A DNA stretch of 64,000 bases. Origin: Acidovorax soli. GTDB taxonomy: Bacteria > Pseudomonadota > Gammaproteobacteria > Burkholderiales > Burkholderiaceae_C. Under the pieces are notes generated by a model. It saw nothing but the letters and a program-made list of their open reading frames with translations. It was not told the origin of the DNA and did not search any database. Positions 31,301 to 47,879 of this stretch are shown piece after piece. Made by a program: the position numbers and the translations under genes. The DNA lies in assembly GCF_900107605.1 (NCBI RefSeq), contig NZ_FNQJ01000001.1, positions 1-64,000 of the forward strand. Direction: 5' to 3'. Each line of letters opens with the position of its first letter. Positions within the stretch are counted from its first letter, which is position 1.

Positions 31301-31631
31301 GTTTTTGTGCCTGAAGGGCGGGAAAGCGCCGGAGCGTTTTCCTGAGCGCTAAGGAGCAGGGTACTCCGGCATTTCGCTCGCGCTCTTGAGTGCGCCGCTG
31401 AACCTGTGGCAAATGTTGAGTGGCTGCAGGGCAATCCCTGGTTGCCGGCATCGTCTTGTGGACGGCGTTTGCCCGGTGCCACCGTTGTTTGTGGGCAATG
31501 CGTCATGCAATCGACATGACAACGACATGGCGTTGTCACGGGAGTCTTTCACACTGCTTTGCGAGGAAGCGGTGCCCGAATAGGTAGCGATTTCCGGAGA
31601 AAGCCATTTTCCTGCCCCTCGGAGACGTCCC
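31301..31631. other. 331-bp intergenic region before the lipid-remodelling operon
   Basis: No convincing gene is visible; a 65-codon frame at 31386-31583 lacks any family resemblance. The first 150 bp show no clear terminator after glmM. The last 130 bp contain four PhoB-like half-sites (31500-31539) and the ribosome binding site of the next gene (GGAG at 31621-31624). Confidence 0.6.
31500..31555 (+). promoter_or_regulatory. Tandem PhoB-like half-sites and -10 upstream of the olsB-like gene
   Basis: Four 7-bp half-sites recur in exact 11-bp register: GCGTCAT (31500), TCGACAT (31511), ACGACAT (31522) and TTGTCAC (31533), all sharing a G-(T/A)-C-A-(T/C) core. Ten bases after the last one lies CACACT (31550-31555) in the position of the -10 at the pstS, ppk and fasciclin promoters. 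Individual matches are weaker than at pstS, but the register is regular. PhoB binds head-to-tail on such 11-bp repeats; occupancy is inference. Confidence 0.55.
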
Positions 31632-32465
31632 ATGAATGAGTTGACCAACCTGCCGCTGCTACCTGCTTCACCGTCAACCGGGGGGGCGCATGCGCGCACA
31701 GAGGGCAAAAGCAGCGTTGCCCCGTTGATGCAGGTGCAGGGCAATATTCAGGTGGGTTGGGCGCGGCACCTTGATGAAGTGCGTCAGGCGCAGCGACTGC
31801 GCTTCGATGTCTTTGCCGCAGAAATGGGCGCCCGGCTGGCAACGACCCTGCCGGGCCACGATGTGGATCTGTTTGACGACTACTGCGAGCATCTTTTGGT
31901 GCGCGATGTACCAAGCCAGCAGGTGATCGGAACCTACCGGGTGCTCACCCCGGCACAGGCAAAGCGTGTGGGGGGGACCTACAGCGACAATGAGTTTGAT
32001 CTGACCCGATTGCGCAGTTTGCGTCCCCGCATGGTCGAGCTGGGCCGCAGTTGCGTGCATCCGGACCATCGCCATGGGGGTGTCATTCTGGCCCTGTGGG
32101 GGGCGCTGGCGGACTTCATGGTGCGCAACCAGCTCGATACGATGATTGGCTGCGCCAGTATTCCGATGCTGCACAACGGCGTGGTGAGCGGCGATGCAGC
32201 TGCCAGCATCTGGCAGCAATTGCGCCAGACCCACATGGCGCCCATTGATTTCCATGTGCGGCCCCGGCTGCCATTGCCGGTAGAGCAGCTCGATGGTTCT
32301 CTGCTGATCGAGCCACCTGCCTTGATCAAGGGCTATCTGCGCCTGGGAGCCCGGGTTCTGGGGGCGCCGGCCTGGGATCCGGATTTCAATACGGCCGACC
32401 TGCCGATGCTGATGCGCATTGCCGATCTGCCCTCCCGCTATCGCAAGCACTTTCTGGGGGCCTGA
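31632..32465 (+). CDS. olsB: OlsB-type N-acyltransferase (ornithine-lipid or related aminolipid synthesis)
   Basis: A 277-residue GNAT-fold protein of the OlsB/COG3176 type. OlsB attaches a 3-hydroxyacyl group from acyl-ACP to ornithine, making lyso-ornithine lipid, a phosphorus-free membrane lipid precursor. Visible landmarks are RQAQRLRFDVFAAEMGARL near residue 50, YCEHLLVRD, VIGTYRVLTP near 95 and ELGRSCVHPDHRHGG near 140, the acyl-donor loop of the fold. The first 35 residues look disordered. ATG 31632 has GGAG 7 bp upstream. Its stop overlaps the next start (TGATG). No olsA partner is visible here. A generic acyltransferase role cannot be excluded. Confidence 0.72.
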   Translation: MNELTNLPLLPASPSTGGAHARTEGKSSVAPLMQVQGNIQVGWARHLDEVRQAQRLRFDVFAAEMGARLATTLPGHDVDLFDDYCEHLLVRDVPSQQVIGTYRVLTPAQAKRVGGTYSDNEFDLTRLRSLRPRMVELGRSCVHPDHRHGGVILALWGALADFMVRNQLDTMIGCASIPMLHNGVVSGDAAASIWQQLRQTHMAPIDFHVRPRLPLPVEQLDGSLLIEPPALIKGYLRLGARVLGAPAWDPDFNTADLPMLMRIADLPSRYRKHFLGA

Positions 32466-33334
32466 TGCGTACGGCGTTCGACGCCTTGGGACCGTGGAGC
32501 GCAGCCTTGGGCACGGAGGGAGTCGCCAGCCATACGGGTGACGTGCATGTGCCCGAGCCGCACCGTTTCCGGGCGGTGTTCATTTCCGATCTGCACCTCG
32601 GAACTCCGGGCTGCCAGGCAACGGCGCTGCTGGATTTTCTCAAGCACCATCCCAGCGAAACGCTTTATCTTGTGGGGGATATCGTGGACGGGTGGCAGCT
32701 GCGTCGCAGATGGTTTTGGCCGCAGGCCCACAACGATGTGGTCCAAAAACTGCTGCGCAGTGCCCGCAAGGGATGTCGCGTGGTGTTCGTGCCGGGCAAT
32801 CATGATGAATTTGCCCGTGCGTTCGTCGGCCATTCGTTCGGCGGTATCGAAGTGGTTGCCGATGCCGTGCACCTGACGGTCGATGGCCGGCAGCTTTGGG
32901 TCACCCATGGTGACTACTTTGACGGAGTTATCCAGTGTGCCAAGTGGCTGGCCTACCTGGGAGATAACCTCTATGAGTTCACTCTCAAGCTCAATCGGCA
33001 TCTCAATTCGTTGCGTGCGCGCATGGGCTTGCCGTACTGGTCGTTGTCGGCCTATCTCAAGGGCAAGGTGAAAAAAGCGCTCAACTATGTAACGGACTTC
33101 GAGATCGCCGTTGCGGCAGAGGCGCGCCGGCGGGGGCACCATGGCGTGGTTTGCGGACATATCCACCGTGCAGAAATGCGGGAGATCGACGGCATTCTGT
33201 ATTGCAACGATGGCGACTGGGTCGAGAGCCGTACTGCACTGGTGGAGCATCTCGATGGTCGATTGGAGTTGTTGCAATGGCCTGCCCGGCCCGCGGTGCC
33301 ATCTATAGCCCCGGTCTCGGAATTGGTTGCATGA
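32465..33334 (+). CDS. plcP: PlcP-like metallophosphoesterase (LpxH superfamily)
   Basis: A calcineurin-like phosphoesterase of 289 residues with all metal motifs: DLH (42-44), GDIVDG (71-76), GNHDE (111-115), THGDYFD and GHIHRAE. Automatic annotation would call it UDP-2,3-diacylglucosamine diphosphatase (LpxH). Its neighbours argue instead for PlcP, the phospholipase C of this superfamily that removes phospholipid head groups during phosphate starvation and yields diacylglycerol. It lies between an OlsB-type acyltransferase and a glycosyltransferase, overlapping both (TGATG and ATGA), and far from the lpx cluster at 13-16 kb. Which activity it has cannot be decided from the sequence alone. 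Confidence 0.7.
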   Translation: MRTAFDALGPWSAALGTEGVASHTGDVHVPEPHRFRAVFISDLHLGTPGCQATALLDFLKHHPSETLYLVGDIVDGWQLRRRWFWPQAHNDVVQKLLRSARKGCRVVFVPGNHDEFARAFVGHSFGGIEVVADAVHLTVDGRQLWVTHGDYFDGVIQCAKWLAYLGDNLYEFTLKLNRHLNSLRARMGLPYWSLSAYLKGKVKKALNYVTDFEIAVAAEARRRGHHGVVCGHIHRAEMREIDGILYCNDGDWVESRTALVEHLDGRLELLQWPARPAVPSIAPVSELVA

Positions 33335-34392
33335 AGATTGTTCTGGTGACGGATGCGTGGCATCCGCAGGTGAATGGGGTGGTGACCACTCTTGTGGAGT
33401 TGGTGCAGCAACTGCAGGGGCTGGGGCACGAAGTCCATGTGATTCACCCAGGCCAGTTTCGCACCCGCCCTTGTCCCGGCTATTCAGGCATCGATCTCGC
33501 GGTTCGACCGGCAGCGTCTTTGGGGCGCGCCATGGACGCCATCAAGCCGGACGCCATCCACCTCGCCACGGAGGGGCCTCTTGGATGGGCTGCCCGAGGC
33601 TATTGTCTGCGCCACAAACTGGCTTTCACCACGGCATTTCACACGCGATTTCCTGAAATATTGAATGCAGCCGTGCGTGTTCCGCTGGCATGGGGCTATG
33701 CATTGTTCAGGCACTTCCATCGTCCGTCCTCGGGAATCATGGTGCCCACGCAAGGAGTCCTGCAAATGCTGGAGCGTCGTGGGTTTCGCAATTTGCGCCA
33801 GTGGACCCACGGTGTGGATACGCAGGCGTTCCCTTTCCAGGGGGAGGCTTCACCCAGCCCCCTGGTTGGCGCATTGGCCCATCCCGTGAGCCTGTATGTG
33901 GGTCGCGTTTCGTACGAAAAGAACATTGAGTCCTTCCTGCAGATCAGGATGCCCGGCACCAAGATTGTGTGCGGCGTGGGTCCATTGGAGCAGCGGTTGA
34001 AGGAGCGTTATCCCGAGGTGCGGTGGGTGGGCCTGCTGGATCGGCAATCCCTTGCAGCACTGTATGCCTGTGCCGATGTGTTCGTATTTCCCAGCCGCTC
34101 AGAGACCTTTGGGTTGGTCATGCTGGAGGCCATGTCCTGCGGAACCCCCGTGGCGGCGTTTCCGGTGGATGGTCCGCTGGAAGTCCTGGGGGCTCTGGAT
34201 CCACAAGGCGTGCGGGGCGGTGTTCTGCATGAAGACCTGCTTTCGGCATGCCAGGCAGCATTGGCTGTGCCGCGTCACGAGGCCCGTCGCCGGGCGCTGG
34301 ATTTCACCTGGGCCAATGCAACAAAACTCTTCGTTCAGCATCTGGTTCCCGCCCGATCAGATGGGTTGTTGCATCTTATGTCTGTCACATAA
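33331..34392 (+). CDS. GT4 family glycosyltransferase (candidate Agt, glycolipid synthesis)
   Basis: A 353-residue GT-B glycosyltransferase. The N-terminal MKIVLVTDAWHPQVNGVVTT with a glycine-rich acceptor loop and the C-terminal EX7E donor motif in SRSETFGLVMLEAMSCGTP are typical of GT4 diacylglycerol or mannosyl transferases. Next to a PlcP-like phospholipase, the likely substrate is diacylglycerol, with a UDP- or GDP-sugar donor, giving a phosphorus-free glycolipid as Agt does in marine bacteria. ATG 33331 is translationally coupled to the upstream gene by ATGA; the open frame extends farther upstream but only as overlap. No transmembrane segment is evident, so peripheral membrane binding is expected. 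Confidence 0.72.
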   Translation: MKIVLVTDAWHPQVNGVVTTLVELVQQLQGLGHEVHVIHPGQFRTRPCPGYSGIDLAVRPAASLGRAMDAIKPDAIHLATEGPLGWAARGYCLRHKLAFTTAFHTRFPEILNAAVRVPLAWGYALFRHFHRPSSGIMVPTQGVLQMLERRGFRNLRQWTHGVDTQAFPFQGEASPSPLVGALAHPVSLYVGRVSYEKNIESFLQIRMPGTKIVCGVGPLEQRLKERYPEVRWVGLLDRQSLAALYACADVFVFPSRSETFGLVMLEAMSCGTPVAAFPVDGPLEVLGALDPQGVRGGVLHEDLLSACQAALAVPRHEARRRALDFTWANATKLFVQHLVPARSDGLLHLMSVT

Positions 34393-34405: not shown

Positions 34406-34439
34406 TTGACACAAGAATGTCATATTCGTATTGAATACT
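34406..34439 (+). promoter_or_regulatory. Candidate PhoB box and -10 of ppk
   Basis: TTGACAC (34406-34412), spacer AAGA, ATGTCAT (34417-34423) form a 7-4-7 box; ten bases later AATACT (34434-34439) matches a -10. Geometry equals that at pstS. Transcription would begin near 34446, favouring the ATG at 34473 over an upstream in-frame TTG at 34431. Confidence 0.6.
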
Positions 34440-34472: not shown

Positions 34473-36665
34473 ATGTCTCCACTGTCCCCTGACGCTGCCG
34501 TGGCCCCATCGCGCGCCAAACTACCTGTCGTCGCAGCGGGTTCTGGCGCCGCAGAAATACTGGATCCGCAGCCCGCAGCACCGGTGGCGCAACTTTCTGT
34601 GGTGGAGCTTCTGGACAGGGACCACAGCATTCTGGCCTTCAATGAGCGTGTGTTCGATTGGGCTGTCCGGACCGACGTGCCGCTGCTGGAACGGCTGCGC
34701 TATCTTTGCATCGTGTCTTCCAATCTGGATGAGTTCTTTGAGGTGAGGGCTGCGCCGCACATCACCGCAGCCAAAAACGGAGAGACCAAGGGTCTCTACA
34801 CCGAAGCATCATTCGAGGCCCTGTCGGTCTTGGCGCACGACCTGGTGGCGCGGCAATATGCTCTGTACAACGAATCCCTGGTTCCGGCTTTTGCAGCGCA
34901 CGGAATTCGCATTGTTCCGCATGGTGAGCGCTCAGCTATCCAGAAGCGCTGGGTGCACGACTATTTCATGCGCGAAGTGCGGCCGCTGCTCATTCCCGTG
35001 GGGCTGGATCCTGCCCATCCATTTCCGCAGGTCGCCAACAAATCCTTGAATTTCATCGTGCGACTCAAGGGGCGCGATGCGTTTGGGCGTGAAAACGAAA
35101 TTGCCATTGTCAAGGTCCCCCGCGCCTTGCCGCGGCTTGTTCGCATGCCGCCGAAGGTTGCACCCAAGGAGGCCTTGTTCGTCAGTCTCTCCAGTATCGT
35201 GCGGGCGCACCTGCATGACCTTTTCCCGGGGCGGGAGGTCACCGAGTTTTCGCAGTTCCGCGTGACCCGCCATTCCGATCTGGCACTCGATGAAGAGGAC
35301 GTCCGCAACCTGAGAACGGCACTGCGCCAGGGCTTGCAGCATCGCCACTATGGCCAGGCGGTTCGGTTGGAAGTTTCTGCCGGCTGTTCGGCGTTTCTTT
35401 CGAACTTTTTGCTTGAGCAGTTTGAATTGCCCGCTGCCGCGCTTTACCGTGTCAGTGGGCCGGTCAATCTGGTGCGCCTGACCCAGTTGGTGGATCTGGT
35501 CAACGATCCCGCGTTGCTGTTTTCCCCCTGGCGTTCTGCCTGGCCGCGGCAGATTCAGCCCGGTGTTTCCATCCTGGAGCAATTGCGGCACCGCGATATC
35601 TTGATGCACCAGCCGTTCGAGAGCTTTGACGGTTTGCTGGCCTTTCTGCGCGAGGCGGTCAATGACCCCCAGGTGCTGGTTATCAAGCAGACCATTTACC
35701 GCACCGGTTCAGACTCTGAGCTCATGGATCTGTTGACCGAGGCAGTGCGCCGCGGCAAGGAGGTCATGGCCGTGGTGGAACTCAAGGCGCGCTTTGACGA
35801 AGAAGCCAATATCAACTGGGCTGAAGCGCTGGAATCCATTGGTGCCCAGGTGGTGTACGGTGTGGTGGGGCTCAAGACACATGCCAAGATGCTGCTGGTC
35901 ACCAGGCGGGAGGGGCGTCAGCTTCGTCGCTATGGCCATTTGTCCACGGGCAACTACAACATGCGCACCGCGCGCCTGTACACCGACCTGAGCTATCTCA
36001 CCGCGGACGAAGAAACCACCGCCGACATGGATGGGGTGTTCAACCATCTGGCCAGTCAGAATCGCCCACCCAGGTTGCGCAGGCTGCTGTTGGCGCCGTT
36101 TCACCTGCACCGCCGCATGCTGGAAAAAATTGAGCAGGTGGGGCTGGCAGCCAGCCGAGGAGAAGATGCGCGCATTGTGGCCAAAATGAACGCCCTGACG
36201 GATGAAGCGTTGATCCGGGCGCTGATCCTTGCCGGGCAGCGCGGTGCTCGGATTGACCTCATTGTGCGGGGTGCCTGCATGCTGCCGGCCCAGTTGCCAG
36301 GAGTCACTGAAAACATCCGGGTGCGCTCGGTGATTGGCCGTTTTTTGGAGCACACACGGGTGTTCTATTTCCGCTCAGGCAGCCAGGAAGATTTGTACCT
36401 GTCCAGCGCCGACTGGATGAACCGCAACATGATGCGGCGGGTGGAACTGGCCTGGCCCGTGACGGACCCGGTTTTGCGTCAGCAGATCGTGGACGAATGC
36501 CTGGTCGCCTATCTTCATGACGACAAGGACGCCTGGATGCTCAAGGCGGATGGAACCTATGAGCGCGCCAGCCAGCCTATCGCCGGCCAGGGGGCTCAGA
36601 ATGCACTGATGGTGCGATACGGCGGCATGTCGGCTGCGGCTCTGCAGGATCAGGGAGCGGCGTGA
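34473..36665 (+). CDS. ppk: Polyphosphate kinase 1
   Basis: PPK1 (730 residues) reversibly polymerises the gamma-phosphate of ATP into polyphosphate. The N domain begins with LDRDHSILAFNERVFDWA near residue 45; the catalytic core holds the phosphorylated His in GLKTHAKMLLVTRREG and the second His region near the C-terminus. The N-terminal 40 residues are an Ala/Pro-rich extension absent from E. coli PPK (688). ATG 34473 lacks a clear ribosome binding site but is the first start after the predicted transcription start. Its stop overlaps sixA (TGATG). Confidence 0.95.
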   Translation: MSPLSPDAAVAPSRAKLPVVAAGSGAAEILDPQPAAPVAQLSVVELLDRDHSILAFNERVFDWAVRTDVPLLERLRYLCIVSSNLDEFFEVRAAPHITAAKNGETKGLYTEASFEALSVLAHDLVARQYALYNESLVPAFAAHGIRIVPHGERSAIQKRWVHDYFMREVRPLLIPVGLDPAHPFPQVANKSLNFIVRLKGRDAFGRENEIAIVKVPRALPRLVRMPPKVAPKEALFVSLSSIVRAHLHDLFPGREVTEFSQFRVTRHSDLALDEEDVRNLRTALRQGLQHRHYGQAVRLEVSAGCSAFLSNFLLEQFELPAAALYRVSGPVNLVRLTQLVDLVNDPALLFSPWRSAWPRQIQPGVSILEQLRHRDILMHQPFESFDGLLAFLREAVNDPQVLVIKQTIYRTGSDSELMDLLTEAVRRGKEVMAVVELKARFDEEANINWAEALESIGAQVVYGVVGLKTHAKMLLVTRREGRQLRRYGHLSTGNYNMRTARLYTDLSYLTADEETTADMDGVFNHLASQNRPPRLRRLLLAPFHLHRRMLEKIEQVGLAASRGEDARIVAKMNALTDEALIRALILAGQRGARIDLIVRGACMLPAQLPGVTENIRVRSVIGRFLEHTRVFYFRSGSQEDLYLSSADWMNRNMMRRVELAWPVTDPVLRQQIVDECLVAYLHDDKDAWMLKADGTYERASQPIAGQGAQNALMVRYGGMSAAALQDQGAA

Positions 36666-37126
36666 TGGACCTCATCCTCTGGCGTCACGCCGAAGCCGAG
36701 GAGGCGGCTGATGGTGTGGATGATGCGGCGCGTCCTCTTACGCCGCGAGGCGAGAAGCAGGCGGCACGCATGGCAGCCTGGCTGGACCGGCAATTGCCGG
36801 AAGGTTTGAGGGTGCTCGCAAGCCCGGCTCGGCGTACGGAGCAGACGGCCAGGGCTTTGGGGCGCAAGTTCAAGATGCGTGCCGAGCTTCTGCCCGGGGG
36901 CAGCGTGCAGGACTTGCTGGAACTGGCCCAGTGGCCGCGTGCCCGTGGAGCCGTGCTGATCATCGGGCATCAGCCTGTGCTCGGACAGGCGATTGCTCAA
37001 TTGCTGGAAATGCAATCACCCGAATGCACCGTGCGCAAGGGCGCCGTGTGGTGGCTCCGCCAGCGCCAAAGACTGGACCATAGCCAGACCGTGCTCATGA
37101 CAGTGCAGTCCCCGGAATTCCTCTGA
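36665..37126 (+). CDS. sixA: Phosphohistidine phosphatase SixA
   Basis: A 153-residue histidine phosphatase-superfamily protein. The catalytic motif is seen as LILWRHAEAEE at the N-terminus with the RHG-type Arg-His pair, and a second His in IIGHQPVLG. SixA removes phosphate from phosphohistidine in Hpt domains and the nitrogen PTS. ATG 36665 overlaps the ppk stop, so the phosphatase is co-expressed with the kinase; a GTG three bases upstream is an alternative start. It ends 35 bp from the convergent next gene. Confidence 0.88.
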   Translation: MDLILWRHAEAEEAADGVDDAARPLTPRGEKQAARMAAWLDRQLPEGLRVLASPARRTEQTARALGRKFKMRAELLPGGSVQDLLELAQWPRARGAVLIIGHQPVLGQAIAQLLEMQSPECTVRKGAVWWLRQRQRLDHSQTVLMTVQSPEFL

Positions 37127-37161: not shown

Positions 37162-37680
37162 TCACTTGCCTTGCTTGCGGACTGTTTTTGCCGAGGGCTT
37201 GGCGGCTGGGGTCTCCGCTTTGGGACGCCCCGTCTTGATGGATGGAACCGCTTGCAAGGCATTGCGCAGGGCCGCGTCCGACAGCCCTGCCAGCACCTTC
37301 AGACCGGCGCGCAGCAGTTCGCTTTTCTTGGCTGGCTGGGCGAGCAAGTTCGCGCGTTGCTTGAGTGTCTCGATGACGGCGTACTCGTCCTTGGGGATGG
37401 TGAAGCTGTCGCGAACCAGTTTGGGCTTTTTGGCGCGAACTTCCTTGGCTTGCAAGGCGGGCGCAGGCGCTGGTGCTGCCTTGGCTGGAGCGGGCGTTGC
37501 CGAACGCTTGACGGGTTTGGCCGGTGCCTTTTTGGCAATTGTCTTGGGTTGACTCGTCGCTGATGTCTTTGCACCGGCCGCGGTTGCCGTTGCAACGGTG
37601 CTCGCTGCTGCGGTCTTGGCGGCAGGTTGTGTGGGTGTTGTGCTGGCGTTTTGGCCTGGAACAGTGCTGGAGGTGTTCAT
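37162..37680 (-). CDS. Ala/Lys/Pro-rich protein with ribbon-helix-helix-like domain
   Basis: A 172-residue protein of unknown function. Residues 1-84 are low-complexity Ala, Thr, Pro and Lys, resembling histone H1-like tails. Residues 85-150 form a compact conserved-looking block, VRDSFTIPKDEYAVIETLKQ through LLRAGLKVLAGLSD, with the strand-helix-helix pattern of MetJ/Arc-type DNA binding. The C-terminus is again Lys/Ala-rich. A perfect 33-bp palindrome begins 13 bp upstream of the ATG, an obvious candidate operator for autoregulation. It lies between ppx and the convergent ppk-sixA operon. A nucleoid- or polyphosphate-binding role is speculation. Confidence 0.7.
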   Translation of the reverse strand: MNTSSTVPGQNASTTPTQPAAKTAAASTVATATAAGAKTSATSQPKTIAKKAPAKPVKRSATPAPAKAAPAPAPALQAKEVRAKKPKLVRDSFTIPKDEYAVIETLKQRANLLAQPAKKSELLRAGLKVLAGLSDAALRNALQAVPSIKTGRPKAETPAAKPSAKTVRKQGK

Positions 37681-37733: not shown

Positions 37734-39215
37734 TCACCCAAGTCTGAGTTCCAGCTCCCAGGGCGTTTTTTGCCAGGCTACCAGTTCTTCCCGCAGCAGG
37801 TAGGCCGATTGGGGGTAGGCAGCCGTCCATCCGGCCCGGGTGCTGACGGTGTGGCGCGTGCCCAGTGTCTGCAAGGACAGGCCTTCCACATCCGGGTCGC
37901 GTCGTGCATGGCAGAGCGCGACCGCCATGCGCAAACTCAACAATTGCAGGGCAAAGCCAGGGTCGTTGATCAGGGCTGCCTCCAGCTTGCGGACTTTGCC
38001 CCGCTGCCCCAGCACCAGCGCCCCGAGCCTGTGCAGTTCGGACACGGCAAACCCTGCCGCGTCGGTGTGATCCAGGATGTAGGCGCCATGGCGGTGGTAT
38101 TCGCTGTGAGAGATGATGCCGCCAATCTCGTGCAGGCGAGCGGCCCATTGCAGCTTCCGTGCTGCGCGCTCGCTGTTCTGGGGCGCCGCCTGGGTGAAGA
38201 GGTCGGAGGCAACGCGTGCCACCCGTTCGGCCTGTGCTGCGTCCACCGAGAAACGCTGCATGAGGCCTTTCACCGTGGTGGTTCTCAAGTCGGTCTCGGG
38301 CTGCTCGCGGTCCAGCAGGTCGTAGAGTGCGCCCTGGCGCAGCGCGCCCTGGGCCACTTGCATCTGCCGGATCTCGAGAAGATCAAAAACAGCCCGCAGC
38401 ACGCTGATACCTCCGCCAATCACTGCCCGCCGGTCTTCCTTGAGCCCCTCCAGGCGAACGCGATCTGCATGGTGCGCGCGCAGCAGGCGGTCATGCAGCC
38501 ATTCCAGTCCTTCCAGGGTGATCAGCCCCTGCGGGCCACCCGCGGCAAAGAGGATGTCGCCTACTGCTCCAGCCGTACCCGAAGACCCATAAGCGATATC
38601 CCAGGTTTCTGGCCGGAATGTGCCAAGGGCCTCATCGAGCACCGCCTTGGCCGCGATTTCTGCGGCCATGAATGCCTGCCGTGTGAACTGGCCATTGGCA
38701 AAGTAGCGCGTGGACCATGCCACGCTGCCAACCCGGAACGAGGCCACCGTGTGGGGGTTGAATTGCTGGCCGAGAATGAACTCCGTGGACCTGCCGCCAA
38801 TGTCCACCACGAGCCGGCGTTCGTCCGATTGGGGTAGCAGGCGTGCAACCCCCTGGTAGATCAGCCGGGCTTCTTCCGGGCCTGACACCACATCGATGGG
38901 GTAGCCCAGAATTTCTCCACCGCGGATCAGGAAGTCTTCCCGGTTGCGGGCTTCGCGAAGGGTCTGGGTTGCCACGGCGCGCACTTGTGCGCGCTCAAAC
39001 CCCGCCAGGCGCTCGCCAAAGCGCGCCAGGCAATCCCAGCCGCGCTGCATGGCTTCGGGGGTGAGGTTGAATTCTTCGTCAAGGCCATTGCCCAGGCGCA
39101 CGGTTTCCTTGAGATATTCCATCCGTTGGATGTGACCGTGCTCGTAACGGCCGATTTCAAGGCGAAAGCTGTTCGATCCCAGATCGACAGCTGCGAGCAG
39201 TGTTCCGTTGTGCAT
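37734..39215 (-). CDS. ppx: Exopolyphosphatase (Ppx/GppA family)
   Basis: A 493-residue ASKHA-fold hydrolase that removes terminal phosphates from polyphosphate or from pppGpp. The N-terminal AAVDLGSNSFRLEIG and the VVDIGGRSTEFILG phosphate loops are present, with GSSGTAGAVGD and an HD-like C-terminal domain (RLHEIGGIISHSEYHRHG). The start is ATG 39215, which gives MHNGTLLAAVDLGSNSF; a longer frame from 39260 has no family support. It is on the strand opposite to ppk, separated by the RHH-like gene. Confidence 0.93.
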   Translation of the reverse strand: MHNGTLLAAVDLGSNSFRLEIGRYEHGHIQRMEYLKETVRLGNGLDEEFNLTPEAMQRGWDCLARFGERLAGFERAQVRAVATQTLREARNREDFLIRGGEILGYPIDVVSGPEEARLIYQGVARLLPQSDERRLVVDIGGRSTEFILGQQFNPHTVASFRVGSVAWSTRYFANGQFTRQAFMAAEIAAKAVLDEALGTFRPETWDIAYGSSGTAGAVGDILFAAGGPQGLITLEGLEWLHDRLLRAHHADRVRLEGLKEDRRAVIGGGISVLRAVFDLLEIRQMQVAQGALRQGALYDLLDREQPETDLRTTTVKGLMQRFSVDAAQAERVARVASDLFTQAAPQNSERAARKLQWAARLHEIGGIISHSEYHRHGAYILDHTDAAGFAVSELHRLGALVLGQRGKVRKLEAALINDPGFALQLLSLRMAVALCHARRDPDVEGLSLQTLGTRHTVSTRAGWTAAYPQSAYLLREELVAWQKTPWELELRLG

Positions 39216-39285
39216 GTTTCTGCGCGTGATGCGCTTGATCTCCAGCGGGCAGCATAGCACCCGCGCCCCTTTTCTCGGGCCTGTA

Positions 39286-41033: not shown

Positions 41034-41067
41034 AGACTACGCAACGGCCGTGACAAAAATATGACGA
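41034..41067 (-). promoter_or_regulatory. PhoB-like box and -10 of the fasciclin operon
   Basis: On the minus strand TCGTCAT, ATTT, TTGTCAC (41067 down to 41050) form a 7-4-7 Pho box; exactly ten bases later TAGTCT (41039-41034) resembles a -10. The same geometry is used by the divergent pstS promoter 60 bp away. Confidence 0.65.
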
Positions 41068-41125: not shown

Positions 41126-41159
41126 ATGTCACGGTGTTGTCATATATGACACCTAGAGT
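41126..41159 (+). promoter_or_regulatory. Pho box and -10 of pstS
   Basis: ATGTCAC (41126-41132), GGTG, TTGTCAT (41137-41143) form a PhoB box close to consensus; ten bases later TAGAGT (41154-41159) is the -10. Transcription would start near 41166, 32 bp before the pstS ATG. PhoB is encoded in the same operon. Confidence 0.82.
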
Positions 41160-41197: not shown

Positions 41198-42238
41198 ATG
41201 AAAATGTCCGTGATTCGAGTTCTGGTGGCTGGTGTCGCTTCTGCTGGAGCATTCTCCAGTGCCATGGCGCAGCAGGAAGCCACGGGGGCTGGTGCTAGTT
41301 TTCCTGCGCCGCTGTACTCCAAGTGGGCGTCTGACTACCACAAGGCCACTGGCGTGAAGATCAACTACCAGTCGGTGGGTTCGGGTGCTGGCCTGCGCCA
41401 GATCGAAGCCAAGACGGTGGATTTCGGTGCTTCCGACGCGCCCCTCAAGGACGAGGATCTCGCCAAGAAGGGCCTGGTTCAGTTTCCCACCGTGATCGGC
41501 GGCATCGTTCCGGTGGTCAATATCAAGGGTATTGCACCCGGGCAGCTCAAGCTGAACGGTCAGGTGCTGGGGGATATCTATCTGGGCAAGATCACCAAGT
41601 GGAGCGATCCTGCCATCAAGGCGCTGAATCCTTCGCTGCCGCTGCCGGATGATTCCATTGCGCCAGTGCGTCGCGCCGACGGTTCGGGCACCACTTTTGG
41701 CTTTACGAACTACCTGTCCAAAGTCAACGCCGAGTGGAAGAGCAAGGTGGGTGAGGGTACCGCCGTGAACTGGCCCACGGGTGCGGGCGGTAAGGGCAAT
41801 GAAGGTGTGGCTGCATTCGTGGGCCGCCTGCCCAACTCGATCGGCTATGTGGAGTACGCCTATGTCAAGCAGAACAAGCTGACCTACGCACAGCTGCAAA
41901 ACTCGGCTGGCAATTATGTTTCACCCGATGATTCGACCTTCAAGGCGGCTGCCGCGGGTGCTGACTGGGCCAAGAGCTTCTATCAGATCCTGACGAACCA
42001 GCCAGGCAAGGATGCGTGGCCAATCACTTCTGCCACGTTCATTCTGTTCCAGAAGACCCAGGACAAGCCGGTGCAGGCTGGTACGGCTCTGAAGTTCTTC
42101 GAGTGGGCTTACAAGTCGGGTGACAAGACGGCGTCCGAACTGGACTATGTTCCCATGCCAGACAGCGTCAAGAACGTCATCATCAAGTCCTGGGGTGACA
42201 TCAAGGACACCTCTGGCAAGGCTGTGTCGTTCAAGTAA
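41198..42238 (+). CDS. pstS: Phosphate ABC transporter substrate-binding protein
   Basis: PstS (346 residues) binds phosphate in the periplasm for PstCAB. The signal peptide ends near AMAQQ (residue 25). The phosphate-binding loops are visible: [36 protein letters not shown] and [19 protein letters not shown] 41198 follows AAAAGG. It leads the pst-pho operon and is followed by a hairpin. Confidence 0.97.
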
Positions 42239-42245
42239 TCTCCTG

Positions 42246-42264
42246 GGCCGGCATCCTGCCGGCC
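42246..42264 (+). other. Intercistronic hairpin pstS-pstC
   Basis: A perfect 8-bp stem GGCCGGCA (42246-42253) with TGCCGGCC (42257-42264) and 3-nt loop directly follows the pstS stop. The T-run after it is interrupted, so partial termination or 3'-end protection of pstS mRNA is more likely than full termination. Confidence 0.65.
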
Positions 42265-42293
42265 ATTTGATTTAACCTTTCAAGGCTACCAAC

Positions 42294-43319
42294 GTGTCTA
42301 CTACGATGCCGGCTCGCCAGAGTTCGCCCTCAGAGGCTGCCTCTGGCATCAAGCGGAGCACGCCTCCACCCCGCAAACCGCTGATATCAGGCATGTTGGC
42401 AGACCGAATTTTTGGATGGCTCGCGCGTGGCGCGGCCATCCTCACGCTGTTGCTGCTGCTGGGCATCATGGCGTCGCTGGTGGCGGGGGCCTGGCCCTCC
42501 ATTTCCCAATACGGCCTGAGTTTCCTCGCCCGCAGCGTCTGGGATCCCGTGCAAAACGAGTACGGCGGCCTGGTCATGATCTATGGCACGCTGGCCACGT
42601 CGTTCATCGCGTTGCTGATTGCCGTACCTGTGAGCTTTGGTATCGCCTTGTTCCTCACCGAGCTGTCTCCCGCCTGGCTGAAGCGGCCCCTGGGAACGGC
42701 GATCGAGTTGCTGGCCGCCGTGCCGTCGATTGTGTATGGCATGTGGGGGTTGATGGTTTTTGGCCCCATCCTCGCGCGTTTTGTGCAGCAGCCCTTGCAG
42801 TCCTTGTTTGCCGGTATTCCCTATCTGGGTGCGCTGGTCTCGGGTCCCCCGGTAGGCATTGGCATTTTGTCGGCGGGCATCATTTTGGCCATCATGATCA
42901 TTCCCTTCATTGCTTCGGTGATGCGGGATGTTTTTGATGTCACGCCAGCGCTCCTCAAGGAGTCGGCTTATGGCCTGGGTTCGACCACCTGGGAGGTGAT
43001 GTGGAAGGTGGTGCTGCCCTATACCAAGACGGGGGTGCTGGGGGGCATCATGCTGGGGCTGGGGCGTGCGCTGGGGGAAACCATGGCGGTAACGTTCGTC
43101 ATCGGCAACATGAACCAGCTCGATTCCCTGTCGATTTTCGAGGCAGCCAACAGCATCACGTCGGCCCTGGCGAATGAATTTGCAGAGGCTGGCGAAGGCC
43201 TGCACCAGGCATCGCTGATCTATCTGGGGCTGGTGCTCTTCTTTATCACTTTTGTGGTGCTGGCCTTGTCCAAGGTCTTGCTGTCACGCCTTCAAAAGAA
43301 CGAAGGAGTCCGCACATGA
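42294..43319 (+). CDS. pstC: Phosphate ABC transporter permease PstC
   Basis: A 341-residue inner-membrane permease with six membrane segments following a cytoplasmic N-terminal tail of about 45 residues. The binding-protein-dependent transport signature is seen in [19 protein letters not shown], the ATPase-contact loop. The start is GTG 42294 with AAGG upstream; ATG 42306 would shorten it by four residues. It overlaps pstA by four bases (ATGA). Confidence 0.95.
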
Positions 43320-44197
43320 CCACCTCGCAGCCTCTTATCTCGGCGGCCGATGTCGCGAAGGCGCGCCAGGCACGCTACAACGGTCGCAAGCGCGTCAACC
43401 AGATTGCCCTGACCCTGTCGTTGGCCGCCATGGCTTTTGGCTTGTTCTGGCTGGTATGGATCTTGTGGGAAACCGTGCGCCTCGGGGTTGGGGGGTTGAG
43501 CCTGACACTGTTCACCGAAATGACGCCGCCGCCCAATGAGGCGGGGGGCATCGCCAATGCCATCTACGGCTCGGTGGTGATGGTATTGCTGGCCACTTTC
43601 GTGGGAACCCCCATCGGCATCATGGCCGGGGTTTACCTGGCCGAGTACGACGTGCGCGGCTGGCTGGCATCCACGACACGCTTCGTGAACGACATTCTGC
43701 TGTCGGCACCCAGCATCGTGATCGGCCTTTTTGTTTATGCCGTGGTGGTGGCGCGCTTCAAGAGTTTTTCGGCCTACGCCGGGATTATGGCCCTGGCATT
43801 GATCGTTATTCCGGTGGTCATCCGGACCACTGAAAACATGCTGATTCTGGTGCCCGCCAGCCTGCGCGAGGCGGCCTACGCCCTGGGCACACCCAAGTGG
43901 AAGGTGATCACCATGGTCACCCTGCGGGCGGCGCGGGCCGGCGTCATTACGGGGGTATTGCTGGCGGTGGCGCGCATTGCGGGTGAGACGGCGCCCTTGC
44001 TGTTCACGGCGTTGAGCAACCAGTTCTGGACCTCGGACTTGTCCAAACCCATGGCCAGTCTGCCCGTCACCATTTTCAAGTTCGCCATGAGCCCCTATGA
44101 AAACTGGCAGCAACTGGCCTGGGCGGGAGTGTTCCTGATCACACTCGCCGTTCTCGGACTCAATATCCTCGCGCGGGTTCTGACCCGGCAGAAATAA
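43316..44197 (+). CDS. pstA: Phosphate ABC transporter permease PstA
   Basis: The partner permease, 293 residues, with six membrane segments and the coupling motif [15 protein letters not shown]. The N-terminal helix begins near [18 protein letters not shown] 43316 follows AAGGAG and overlaps the pstC stop. Confidence 0.95.
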
Positions 44198-44212
44198 GCA
44201 AGGAAGACTTTC

Positions 44213-44998
44213 ATGCCCTCCACTCTCCAAAAATCGCAACCGGGCCCGTCGAAGATCACGGTCAGGGACCTGAACTTCTATTACGGCAAGTTCCACGCCC
44301 TCAAGGCCATCAATCTGGATATTCCGGAAAACAAGGTCACGGCCTTTATCGGACCGTCCGGTTGTGGCAAGTCCACGCTGTTGCGCACCTTCAATCGCAT
44401 GTTCGAGCTGTATCCCGAGCAGCGTGCCGAAGGCCAGATCGTGCTGGATGGCGAAAACCTGCTGACCACCAAGCAGGATGTGGCGCTGATCCGGGCCAAG
44501 ATCGGCATGGTGTTCCAGAAGCCAACGCCTTTTCCCATGTCGATCTACGACAACATCGCCTTTGGTGTGAAGCTGTTTGAAAGCCTCAGCGCCACGGACA
44601 TGGATGACCGCGTGGAGTGGGCATTGCGCAAGGCGGCGCTGTGGAATGAGGTCAAGGACAAGCTCAGTCAGAGTGGCTCCAGCCTCTCGGGTGGGCAACA
44701 GCAGCGCCTTTGCATTGCGCGTGGCATTGCCATCAAGCCAGAGGTGCTGTTGCTGGACGAACCGTGCTCGGCCCTCGACCCGATCTCCACCGCCAAGATC
44801 GAGGAGTTGATCGCCGAACTGAAGGAAGACTACACCGTGGTGATCGTCACGCACAACATGCAGCAGGCAGCGCGTTGCAGCGACTACACCGCCTACATGT
44901 ACCTGGGGGATCTGGTGGAGTTCGGTGAGACAGAACAGATGTTCTTCAAGCCCCAGCGCAAGGAAACCGAAGACTATATTACCGGCCGTTTTGGCTGA
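44213..44998 (+). CDS. pstB: Phosphate ABC transporter ATP-binding protein
   Basis: A 261-residue ABC ATPase that energises phosphate import. Walker [10 protein letters not shown] (about residues 48-56), ABC signature LSGGQQQRL, Walker [14 protein letters not shown] and the switch His in VTHNM are intact. It follows pstA by 15 bp and precedes phoU by 12 bp. Confidence 0.98.
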
Positions 44999-45010
44999 GG
45001 AGGCAAATTC

Positions 45011-45715
45011 ATGGCTGACAAGCACCTTTCATCGCAGTTCGACAGCGAACTCAACGGCGTCTCTGCCCGCGTCATGGAATTGGGGGGACTGGTGGAATCG
45101 CAGATTCGCCAGGCCATTTACGCGCTTTCACATTTCAGTCTCGAAGCGGTGGAGCAGGTGGCATTGATAGAGCAGCGCGTGAATGCCATGGAAGTCGAGA
45201 TTGACCACGAACTCGCGTCCATCATTGGCCGGCGCCAGCCCACTGCCCGCGACTTGCGGCTGCTGCTCTCCATTTCCAAGGCCACCGCCAACCTGGAACG
45301 CGTGGGTGACGAGGCCAACAAGATGGCCCGCATGGTGAAGTCGATCATTGAGAGCGGTGCGGCCCGTTCACTGCCATCGAGCGACCTGCGCGTATCGGCC
45401 GACCTGGCCTCGGGCATGCTGCGCAAGGCGCTGGATGCCTTTGCGCGCCTGGACACCAAGGCGGCGCTGGCCATCCTCAAGGAGGACGATCTCATTGACA
45501 AAGAGTTCGATGGCTTTGTCCGCAAGCTCATCACCTACATGGTGGAAGACCCGCGCACCATCTCCGCCAGCCTGGACCTGTTGTTCCTGGCCAAGGCGAT
45601 CGAACGCATTGGCGATCACTCCAAGAATGTGGCCGAACTCGTCATCTACCTTGTCAAGGGCAAGGACGTGCGGCACACGGCACTTGATGAAATTGAAACC
45701 ACTTTGTTGCAGTGA
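45011..45715 (+). CDS. phoU: Phosphate signalling protein PhoU
   Basis: PhoU (234 residues) links PstB transport state to PhoR and limits phosphate uptake. Two three-helix PhoU repeats are visible, each with an acidic metal-binding E-x3-D-like helix (EVEIDHELASIIGRRQP and the IERIGDHSKNVAELVIYL block). ATG 45011 has AGGAGG upstream. It sits between pstB and phoB. Confidence 0.97.
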   Translation: MADKHLSSQFDSELNGVSARVMELGGLVESQIRQAIYALSHFSLEAVEQVALIEQRVNAMEVEIDHELASIIGRRQPTARDLRLLLSISKATANLERVGDEANKMARMVKSIIESGAARSLPSSDLRVSADLASGMLRKALDAFARLDTKAALAILKEDDLIDKEFDGFVRKLITYMVEDPRTISASLDLLFLAKAIERIGDHSKNVAELVIYLVKGKDVRHTALDEIETTLLQ

Positions 45716-45730
45716 GCGATTGGCGTTGAC

Positions 45731-46438
45731 ATGAAAAAGCTTCCTCGCGTATTGATTGTGGAAGATGAGCCGGCGATTGCCGAGCTGATTGCCGTCAATC
45801 TGCGCCACAACGGTTTTCAACCCATCTGGTCGGAAGATGGTGATTCGGCCCAGCGTGAACTCGATGCTGTCCTTCCCGATGTCATCCTGCTCGACTGGAT
45901 GCTGCCCGGTCAAAGCGGCCTCGTGCTGGCGCGTAAGTGGCGTGCAGACAGTCGGACCAAACCCATCCCCATCCTCATGCTGACCGCCCGGGGTGATGAG
46001 CCCGACAAGGTGGCCGGGCTCGATGCGGGGGCGGACGACTACATCACCAAGCCGTTTTCCACGCAGGAGCTGCTGGCGCGCATCCGGGCGGTGCTGCGGC
46101 GCCGCGCGCCCGAGCAGGTGAGCGACAGCGTCACCATTGGCGATCTCGTGCTGGACGCGGGTACCTACCGGGTCACTTTCCATGGGCAGCCGCTGAAGGT
46201 GGGGCCGACCGAGTTCAAGCTGCTGCATTTCTTCATGAAGCACTCGGAGCGCGTGCACAGCCGCTCACAACTGCTGGACAAGGTGTGGGGCGACCATGTG
46301 TTCATTGAAGAGCGAACCGTGGACGTGCATGTGAAGCGGCTGCGGGAGGCCCTGGGTGCGGCGGGCGTCATGGTGGAAACCGTGCGCGGCGCGGGCTACC
46401 GGCTCACCGCCCAGCCGCCCGCGCTGATGCAGGCCTGA
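45731..46438 (+). CDS. phoB: Phosphate regulon response regulator PhoB
   Basis: A 235-residue OmpR-family regulator. The receiver phospho-acceptor Asp is in DVILLDWMLPGQ (about 56), with acidic EDEPA near the N-terminus and TKPFST containing the conserved Lys. The C-terminal winged helix has VGPTEFKLLHFFM and the recognition helix around RTVDVHVKRLREAL. It is expected to bind the 7-4-7 boxes found at 31.5, 34.4 and 41.0-41.1 kb. Confidence 0.97.
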   Translation: MKKLPRVLIVEDEPAIAELIAVNLRHNGFQPIWSEDGDSAQRELDAVLPDVILLDWMLPGQSGLVLARKWRADSRTKPIPILMLTARGDEPDKVAGLDAGADDYITKPFSTQELLARIRAVLRRRAPEQVSDSVTIGDLVLDAGTYRVTFHGQPLKVGPTEFKLLHFFMKHSERVHSRSQLLDKVWGDHVFIEERTVDVHVKRLREALGAAGVMVETVRGAGYRLTAQPPALMQA

Positions 46439-46496
46439 ATGTTGCAGTCCGGGGGCGGAGTGCCTTCGTGACCCCCGAGAAAGTTGTGTAGTCCGC

Positions 46497-47879
46497 ATGC
46501 TCTGGCGTTTTCTTTATTTTCTGGCCTGGCAATTGGCTGGAGGCGCGCTCGGCTGGTGGCAAGGTGGCCCCTGGGGCGCAGTGCTGGGGGCCGGGGTGGC
46601 TGCATGGTTGTGGTTTGTCGGAGATTTGTGGCGGGGGGTGCGGGTGCTGCAGTGGCTGCGCTCGGGTGACCTGTCGGCGGCTCCGTCAACCTTCGGCATG
46701 TGGGGTGAAGCGGCAGATCGCGCGCGGCGTCTGTTGCGCCAGCGCCAGGCGCAGGTCAACGAAAGCGAGGATCGTCTGCAGGAAATTCTGGCGGCACTCC
46801 AGGCCACGCCCAATGGCATTGTCCTGCTCGATGGTGAAGGGCGCATTGAATGGTGCAATCAGCTTGCGGCTGCACAGTTTGGGTTCGATGCCCAGCGGGA
46901 TGTCATGCAGTCTGTCGGCAACCTGGTACGGGATCCTGATTTCAGTGCCTACTATGCGGCCCAGGATTACACCCACGATGTGGTGCTGCAGGGCAGGAAC
47001 AGCACGCTGTCCCGGCCCGTGCGCATTTCGGTGCATCTGCATCCGTATGGCGATGGGCGCAAGCTGATGCTGTCCCGGGATGTCACGGCGCTGGAGCAGG
47101 CCGACGCCATGCGCCGCGATTTTGTGGCCAATGTGTCACATGAAATCCGCACGCCCCTGACCGTGCTGACGGGTTTTGTGGAAACCCTGCAAACCCTGCC
47201 GCTGGATGCCGAGGAGCGTGCACGCTACCTGGCCATGATGGCCCAGCAGGCGGCGCGCATGCAGAGCGTGGTGCACGATTTGCTGACGCTCTCGCGCCTG
47301 GAAGGCAGTCCCCTGCCTGGTATTTCCGAATGGACGTCGGTACAGGTCCTGATGCTGCGGTGCGAGGAAGAGGGCCGGGCCTTGTCGGCACTGTTGACGC
47401 AAAACAACCATCGGCACCATGTGCTGCAGTTTCCTGCGGCGCAGGATTTGCGATCCGCGGGCGAAATTGCCGGTGTGCAGGCCGAGTTGCAAAGTGTGCT
47501 GTCCAACCTCATCAGCAATGCCGTGCGCTACACGCCCGCAGGCGGCACCATCACGGTGCAATGGCGCTACACGACCGATGGCAATGCCATCTTTTCCGTG
47601 AGCGACACCGGGCCCGGCATTGCGCCGGAGCATATTCCGCGCATCACCGAGCGGTTCTACCGCGTCGACCGCAGCCGGTCGAGGGAAACGGGTGGCACGG
47701 GCCTGGGGCTGGCCATCGTCAAGCATGCCGTGCAGCGGCATGGCGCCACGCTTGATATCACCAGTGCACTGGGCAAGGGATCGGTCTTCTCGGTTACTTT
47801 TCCTGCCAACCGGCTTCGCCGCTCCGCGTTGCCGGCCGAATTGCAACCCGCAGCATCAGCACAAACAGCCCTGCCGTGA
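46497..47879 (+). CDS. phoR: Phosphate regulon sensor histidine kinase PhoR
   Basis: A 460-residue kinase with an N-terminal membrane region (two hydrophobic segments within about residues 1-45), a PAS domain (NGIVLLDGEGRIEWCNQLAA), the HisKA phospho-His in FVANVSHEIRTPLTVL, and the HATPase N, G1 and G2 boxes (NLISNAVRYTP, DTGPGIAPEHI, GGTGLGLAIVKH). It has no large periplasmic sensor, consistent with signalling through PstB and PhoU. Its last 86 bp overlap the convergent MATE gene. Confidence 0.96.
   Translation: MLWRFLYFLAWQLAGGALGWWQGGPWGAVLGAGVAAWLWFVGDLWRGVRVLQWLRSGDLSAAPSTFGMWGEAADRARRLLRQRQAQVNESEDRLQEILAALQATPNGIVLLDGEGRIEWCNQLAAAQFGFDAQRDVMQSVGNLVRDPDFSAYYAAQDYTHDVVLQGRNSTLSRPVRISVHLHPYGDGRKLMLSRDVTALEQADAMRRDFVANVSHEIRTPLTVLTGFVETLQTLPLDAEERARYLAMMAQQAARMQSVVHDLLTLSRLEGSPLPGISEWTSVQVLMLRCEEEGRALSALLTQNNHRHHVLQFPAAQDLRSAGEIAGVQAELQSVLSNLISNAVRYTPAGGTITVQWRYTTDGNAIFSVSDTGPGIAPEHIPRITERFYRVDRSRSRETGGTGLGLAIVKHAVQRHGATLDITSALGKGSVFSVTFPANRLRRSALPAELQPAASAQTALP

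Follow-up and report, generated by a model that had tools for sequence, protein, structure and literature searches.

Origin of the question and the proposed operon

Are two routes for replacing membrane phospholipids joined in a single operon? The question is raised by three genes at positions 31632-34392 of a 64,000-nucleotide stretch of Acidovorax soli (contig NZ_FNQJ01000001.1, positions 1 to 64,000), hereafter the window, which a preliminary description had read as an OlsB-type acyltransferase, a PlcP-type phosphoesterase and a GT4 glycosyltransferase with overlapping starts and stops, upstream of ppk and near pst-pho; this layout is seen in the open reading frames and domain matches. Accounts of phosphate-driven lipid remodelling concern marine bacteria, rhizobia, pseudomonads and methanotrophs, and Agrobacterium is covered by a review (PMC3972451). 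We found that the three genes very probably constitute a PhoB-controlled operon that would replace phospholipids by two phosphorus-free lipid kinds at once. A dual lipid-replacement operon, composed of known enzymes in a recurring arrangement, is well supported by the sequence evidence. Its parts are as follows.

31632..32465, + strand: olsB, predicted OlsB-type ornithine N-acyltransferase (GNAT, Acetyltransf_5), from the open reading frame, Pfam and OlsB models
32465..33334, + strand: plcP, predicted metallophospholipase C of the Pho response, from tree, signatures and identities to references
33331..34392, + strand: agt, predicted GT4 diacylglycerol glycosyltransferase, from Pfam, tree, identity to Agt1 and place beside plcP
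31500..31539, + strand: PhoB-like array of four 7-mers with 11-base-pair (bp) spacing, 92 bp upstream of olsB

The TGA of olsB (32463-32465) shares one base with the ATG of plcP at 32465, and the TGA of plcP (33332-33334) shares four bases with the ATG of agt at 33331, which we took as the start since the listed open reading frame (33151-34392, TTG) is too long upstream. The Pfam matches of the three products are Acetyltransf_5 (119 bits), Metallophos with Metallophos_2, and Glyco_transf_4 with Glycos_transf_1.

Under phosphate limitation, phosphorylated PhoB would bind the array, and one transcript would give OlsB, PlcP and Agt, translationally coupled via the stop-start overlaps. PlcP, a two-metal phosphodiesterase, would split phospholipids into diacylglycerol and a phosphoalcohol, and Agt would glycosylate the diacylglycerol with glucose and/or glucuronate. 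OlsB would form lyso-ornithine lipid by N-acylation of ornithine; completion to ornithine lipid would fall to an OlsA whose gene is elsewhere in the genome, the best candidate being on contig C41. We infer this scheme from the gene order, family membership, conserved metal ligands and the recurrence of both the order and the PhoB-like sites. Gene content, families and sites thus fit the earlier suggestion that phospholipids are replaced by both routes; the part of it that is less secure concerns OlsA, which lies outside the operon, and the amino-acid and sugar specificities, the change of lipids and the dependence on PhoB, which are predictions.

PhoB-like sites and recurrence of the gene order

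The array consists of the units GCGTCAT, TCGACAT, ACGACAT and TTGTCAC. No other four-unit site in the window scores as high, and none of 4000 Markov sequences, each 331 bp long, attained its score; comparison of the array to shuffles of its own region gives 1/1001, and its first three units rank 5th in the window (P 0.008). To see how far such sites recur in relatives, upstream regions of up to 260 bp were each compared to their own Markov shuffles, and sites were counted at p < 0.05. It should be noted that the counted loci are related and do not represent independent trials. In loci with the operon, three-unit sites precede olsB in 16/25 cases and two-unit sites in 12/25, while neither kind was found at this threshold before the internal plcP (0/25 for both). 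Conversely, plcP without an adjacent olsB is preceded by three-unit sites in 13/15 and two-unit sites in 10/15 cases, and olsB not next to plcP in 30/32 and 24/32, respectively, a set that includes locus L290, where olsB directly precedes agt. The corresponding frequencies are 2/18 and 4/18 before ppk, 2/6 and 1/6 before glmM (the gene upstream of the olsB array region), and 20/240 and 16/240 in pieces drawn at random from these loci, which served as background. A further control, low-GC (guanine plus cytosine) sequence upstream of long open reading frames, gave 37/113 at p < 0.05 and is unclean, as olsB and ppk promoters are among these regions. The PhoB-like sites proposed for the operon are therefore present upstream of olsB and recur in relatives. 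For this family, olsB and plcP both have the look of Pho genes; where they form the operon, a single site, ahead of the first gene, would serve the two. The idea that joining newly brought olsB under Pho control was rejected in view of the sites before stand-alone olsB (30/32).

In the family sample of 120 genomes, plcP was found in 87, olsB in 97 and both in 81. The olsB gene lies just before plcP in 33/120 genomes, and the full olsB-plcP-agt order is present in 25/120 (agt accepted only at E <= 1e-60), so that the joined operon, attributed at first to this one bacterium, is indeed present in A. soli and is not peculiar to it. In the PlcP tree, the clade of the window is olsB-adjacent in 26/28 rows, compared to 0/13 in the sister clade, which suggests that the operon of the family may have one origin with losses. 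Outside the family, among the matches listed, olsB and plcP lie within 8 kb of each other in 18/86 order genomes that have both, where the estimate expected by chance is well under one; this count takes in the best 141 of 206 genomes with OlsB matches, reaches only some of the genomes that have both genes, perhaps not a representative share, includes the separately added genome G288 (17/85 without it) and excludes the plcP genome G439. These 18 genomes belong to nine families and show several gene arrangements, olsB being found upstream, downstream or on the opposite strand.

The acyltransferase and the weight of the operon reading

Several observations weigh against a dual operon. The array is weak when built up one unit at a time, with the first two ranking 27th in the window (P 0.11), and sites at p < 0.05 are missing from 9/25 operon loci for three units and from 13/25 for two. 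In 48 of the 81 family genomes with both genes, olsB is not just before plcP. The window OlsB misses the NCBIfam OlsB equivalog cut-offs (158 of 350 and 150 of 320 bits), so far below them that ornithine is no more than the probable amino acid. Finally, olsA is not in the operon; its best candidate, the unlinked C41 gene, has a match of some kind in 118/120 family genomes, with olsB present or absent, and may therefore have another main role.

The acyltransferase, ACYLTRANSFERASE (31632-32465), is OlsB-like by profile models and is the sole Acetyltransf_5 match found in the genome. The next family, OlsF, gives 38 bits and is also an ornithine lipid synthase; identity to S. meliloti OlsB is 33.1% over 90% of the query. 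The cut-offs themselves look narrow, because an OlsB piece from a Pseudomonas-type genome, used as a control and encoded beside an OlsA-like gene, gives 119 bits on each model, below the cut-offs, while S. meliloti OlsB gives 511 bits. The window enzyme could instead acylate another amino acid (e.g., glutamine, glycine or lysine), its product being an aminolipid other than ornithine lipid. This is in keeping with the sub-cut-off scores, and related acyltransferases for other amino acids exist (a paper on glutamine lipid is cited in PMC8528852); however, both OlsB models lead the next family by more than 110 bits and the Bacteroides GlsB model gives only 18 bits, which makes this explanation unlikely. 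We prefer an OlsB-like enzyme with ornithine as its predicted substrate.

The preliminary description had this enzyme make the precursor of ornithine lipids. The OlsB-like assignment stands, with the qualification that OlsB alone would give only the lyso-lipid, the OlsA step being encoded outside the operon. A search for OlsA found three Acyltransferase loci in the genome. The C41 protein scores 128 and 107 bits on OlsA models (cut-off 300) and 87 bits on the PlsC model (cut-off 103), shares 31-44% identity with OlsA-like proteins whose genes lie near olsB or plcP in other genomes, and groups loosely with those proteins, apart from PlsC, with weak tree support; its gene adjoins a dihydroorotase-like gene. 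It is the best candidate for OlsA. Assignment by phylogenetic profile was uninformative, given the matches in nearly all family genomes noted above.

Alternatively, olsB may be regulated separately and may merely neighbour a Pho-regulated plcP-agt unit. PhoB-like sites also precede stand-alone olsB genes, so each unit could be regulated alone, and olsB stands immediately before plcP in 33 of the 81 family genomes that have both. Against this stand the stop-start overlaps in the window and the comparison of sites before plcP (0/25 inside the operon versus 13/15 without adjacent olsB). We consider separate regulation quite improbable, and a single transcription unit the better explanation.

Phosphoesterase and glycosyltransferase

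The phosphoesterase, judged by several kinds of comparison, is a predicted PlcP and not an LpxH. A maximum-likelihood tree splits 86 PlcP from 20 LpxH rows with support of 100/100 and in 100% of 200 bootstrap trees, and S. meliloti and P. aeruginosa PlcP (54.4% and 55.2% identical to the window protein) are on the window's side; it should be noted that the program warned of some long branches, that the bootstrap was just short of settling, and that one PlcP row (L169) has an in-frame stop, which was treated as a gap. All seven calcineurin-type metal ligands (DxH, D, N, H, HxH) are present in 106/106 rows (86 PlcP, 20 LpxH), including the window phosphoesterase and both references. The column of LpxH Arg80 is His in 86/86 PlcP rows and that of Phe82 is Glu in 82/86, whereas the LpxH motif GHTH is GHIH in 86/86; the window protein has the PlcP state in each. 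The S. meliloti reference has an acyl-homoserine lactone synthase and a LuxR regulator as neighbours, and is presumably SMc00171. In P. aeruginosa, a helix-turn-helix gene precedes the reference plcP, and genes for a glycosyltransferase and an adenylate cyclase follow it; we take this stretch to be PA3220 to PA3217, with plcP as PA3219. Scores in the PlcP search are bimodal, at least 207.9 or at most 39.3 bits in the phylum sample (299 genomes) and at least 73 (a fragment) or at most 40.7 bits in the family sample. A tree setting PlcP against LpxH is also found in PMC9239053.

On curated LpxH models with cut-offs of 134 and 190, the window phosphoesterase gives 50.5 and 44 bits, and it lacks the LpxH signature GNRDF; the PlcP references are likewise below the cut-offs (38-39 bits for S. 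meliloti, 55 and 44.5 for P. aeruginosa). The genome has a separate LpxH on contig C45, which gives 238.7 bits on PRK05340 (cut-off 134) and 189.3 on TIGR01854, slightly below the cut-off of 190.35, and matches nine PDB LpxH sequences. That the window protein is a second LpxH, in an operon serving envelope or lipopolysaccharide synthesis, is scarcely credible: the common superfamily, the lipid A name in public annotation and its sole PDB sequence match, an LpxH (E 5.9e-5), speak for this, and the sub-cut-off scores, the separate LpxH, the tree and the residue signatures weigh against it.

The PlcP-type assignment of the preliminary description has thus passed the tree comparison with LpxH, and the enzyme is, as predicted there, liable to be misread. 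Among 31 PLSDB records that match it, 24 carry the feature name “UDP-2,3-diacylglucosamine diphosphatase” and 7 are without a name; for matches of at least 52% identity (n = 23) the numbers are 18 and 5, and the S. meliloti and P. aeruginosa copies are both annotated in this way. Public annotation conceals the key enzyme PlcP under a lipid A name. Some of the plasmid records deserve a separate remark. One S. meliloti record (CP090106.1, 3.72 Mb; loci L265, L268 and L271), labelled plasmid pSymB, carries rpoN, mutS, lspA, plcP and olsB, which we take to be chromosomal genes, so that it is apparently the chromosome under a plasmid label. The plcP-agt1 pair is present in P. aeruginosa plasmid records NZ_CP137508.1 (L267), CP075839.1 and NZ_CP042268.1; in the one that was examined, the neighbours are presumably the chromosomal ones, which points either to a piece of chromosome that was captured or to a contig with the wrong label.

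The agt product is 47.5% identical, over 95% of the length, to P. aeruginosa Agt1, the glycosyltransferase beside plcP. The two proteins and 61 other rows are on one side of a quick tree without bootstrap (SH-like approximate likelihood ratio test, 99), in which the outgroup is 7 distant GT4 rows preselected by score. An Agt homologue (at least 200 bits) follows plcP within 1 kb in 53/80 loci, 24/40 in the family and 29/40 outside. By sequence kinship the glycosyltransferase is an Agt, and production of monoglucosyldiacylglycerol (MGDG) and/or glucuronic acid diacylglycerol (GADG) is predicted. In one Pseudomonas-type genome (L132, 10093-11992), plcP-agt is a few kb from genes that by eye resemble acvB/virJ and the C-terminal domain of mprF.

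Comparison with known systems

The glycolipids MGDG and GADG are products of PlcP and Agt enzymes in P. aeruginosa, SAR11 and Methylosinus, and for these systems function and Pho boxes are established (PMC8528852, PMC4796936, PMC9239053). The window shares with these plcP-agt operons (PA3219-PA3218 in P. aeruginosa) the order of PlcP followed immediately by a GT4 Agt (55.2% and 47.5% identity to the P. aeruginosa pair) and the Pho boxes; it differs in having olsB as the first gene and ppk1-sixA after agt. In P. putida BIRD-1, PlcP, OlsA and OlsB depend on PhoBR (PMC5082522), and in P. aeruginosa both lipid routes are induced by low phosphate from separate operons (PMC9804370), the Pseudomonas olsBA genes being at a locus other than plcP-agt (PMC5082522, PMC9804370). 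Compared with Pseudomonas olsBA and with olsB and olsA of S. meliloti and Agrobacterium, the window likewise has an OlsB-type N-acyltransferase, PhoB-like sites and an OlsA-like gene in the genome; its olsB, however, is joined to plcP-agt, and its sole OlsA candidate is unlinked. Sebastian et al. (PMC4796936) distinguished plcP neighbourhood types 1-6, in which plcP is similarly beside genes for phosphorus-free lipids and Pho boxes, and as neighbours of plcP the passages of that text name btaBA, agt and further glycosyltransferases, but not olsB. No description of a joined olsB-plcP-agt operon was found in the open-access literature, mostly judged by title, abstract opening or passages. Pho control of both routes in one cell is already known from Pseudomonas; the novelty would be their joining in one recurrent operon of known enzymes, which seems to be undescribed.

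In a fair proportion of the genera of this betaproteobacterial family, the glycolipid and aminolipid routes would belong to a single transcription unit, and since they share it, the ratio of the two substitute lipids would be fixed by design.

Neighbouring genes and polyphosphate

The following features of the window surround the operon.

34406..34423, + strand: Pho-box-like site TTGACACAAGAATGTCAT, between agt and ppk, from motif scoring
34473..36665, + strand: ppk1, polyphosphate kinase (start ATG 34473; the list of open reading frames has TTG 34431)
36662..37126, + strand: sixA, phosphohistidine phosphatase (TIGR00249, 77.2 bits, cut-off 74.5)
37734..39260, - strand: ppx/gppA phosphatase (Pfam Ppx-GppA, 248 bits)
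41050..41067, - strand: Pho-box-like site before pstS, from motif scoring
41126..41143, + strand: Pho-box-like site before pstS, from motif scoring
41198..47879, + strand: pstSCAB-phoU-phoB-phoR, from curated NCBIfam models (pstA not among the scored genes)

The sites at 34406, 41050 and 41126 are the best two-unit sites of the window in both scorings, and pstS, pstC, pstB, phoU, phoB and phoR are each above at least one curated NCBIfam cut-off. Between sixA and ppx there is an Ala/Lys-rich minus-strand open reading frame (37162-37680, 172 amino acids) without a Pfam match.

The ppk1 gene is inside the fetched region of 27/40 family loci, and some clusters outside the family also hold ppk, ppx, dgkA or pst/pho. 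Gene content was compared by eye in a picked set of 29 loci (20 newly fetched, 11 of those chosen for clustering), without a tree test; polyphosphate genes (ppk1, ppk2 or ppx) are present in 9/16 loci with olsB versus 1/13 without. This recurrent company raises the question of whether phosphate stripped from membranes goes to polyphosphate. We suggest, as a tentative and somewhat doubtful generalization, that Burkholderiales may have repeatedly and independently built phosphorus-economy islands, with plcP, agt, olsB with or without olsA, dgkA, ppk1/ppk2 and ppx beside pst/pho, in which a single regulated programme would shift membrane phosphate into the cell's pools of phosphate and polyphosphate and make the two substitute lipids in fixed proportion.

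Three other arrangements were observed. A compact island, ppk2 | olsA-like <-> plcP-agt-dgkA-olsB | ppx, is present in small genomes (1.7-2.1 Mb) of the order, presumably Polynucleobacter (L122, 4053-10762; also L123 and L124; domains checked in one of the three loci); a strong PhoB-like site of three units lies within the gap between olsA and plcP or close to it. In two f7 genomes, phoU-phoB-phoR adjoins olsA-olsB <-> GT-plcP-GT, in which the glycosyltransferases (GT) are distant kin of Agt (30-34%). A genome of another family (f108; L302, 3052-12148) has the order sixA-ppk1 <-> olsB-plcP-agt-dgkA-ppx-pstS, and shares the first three operon genes with the window.

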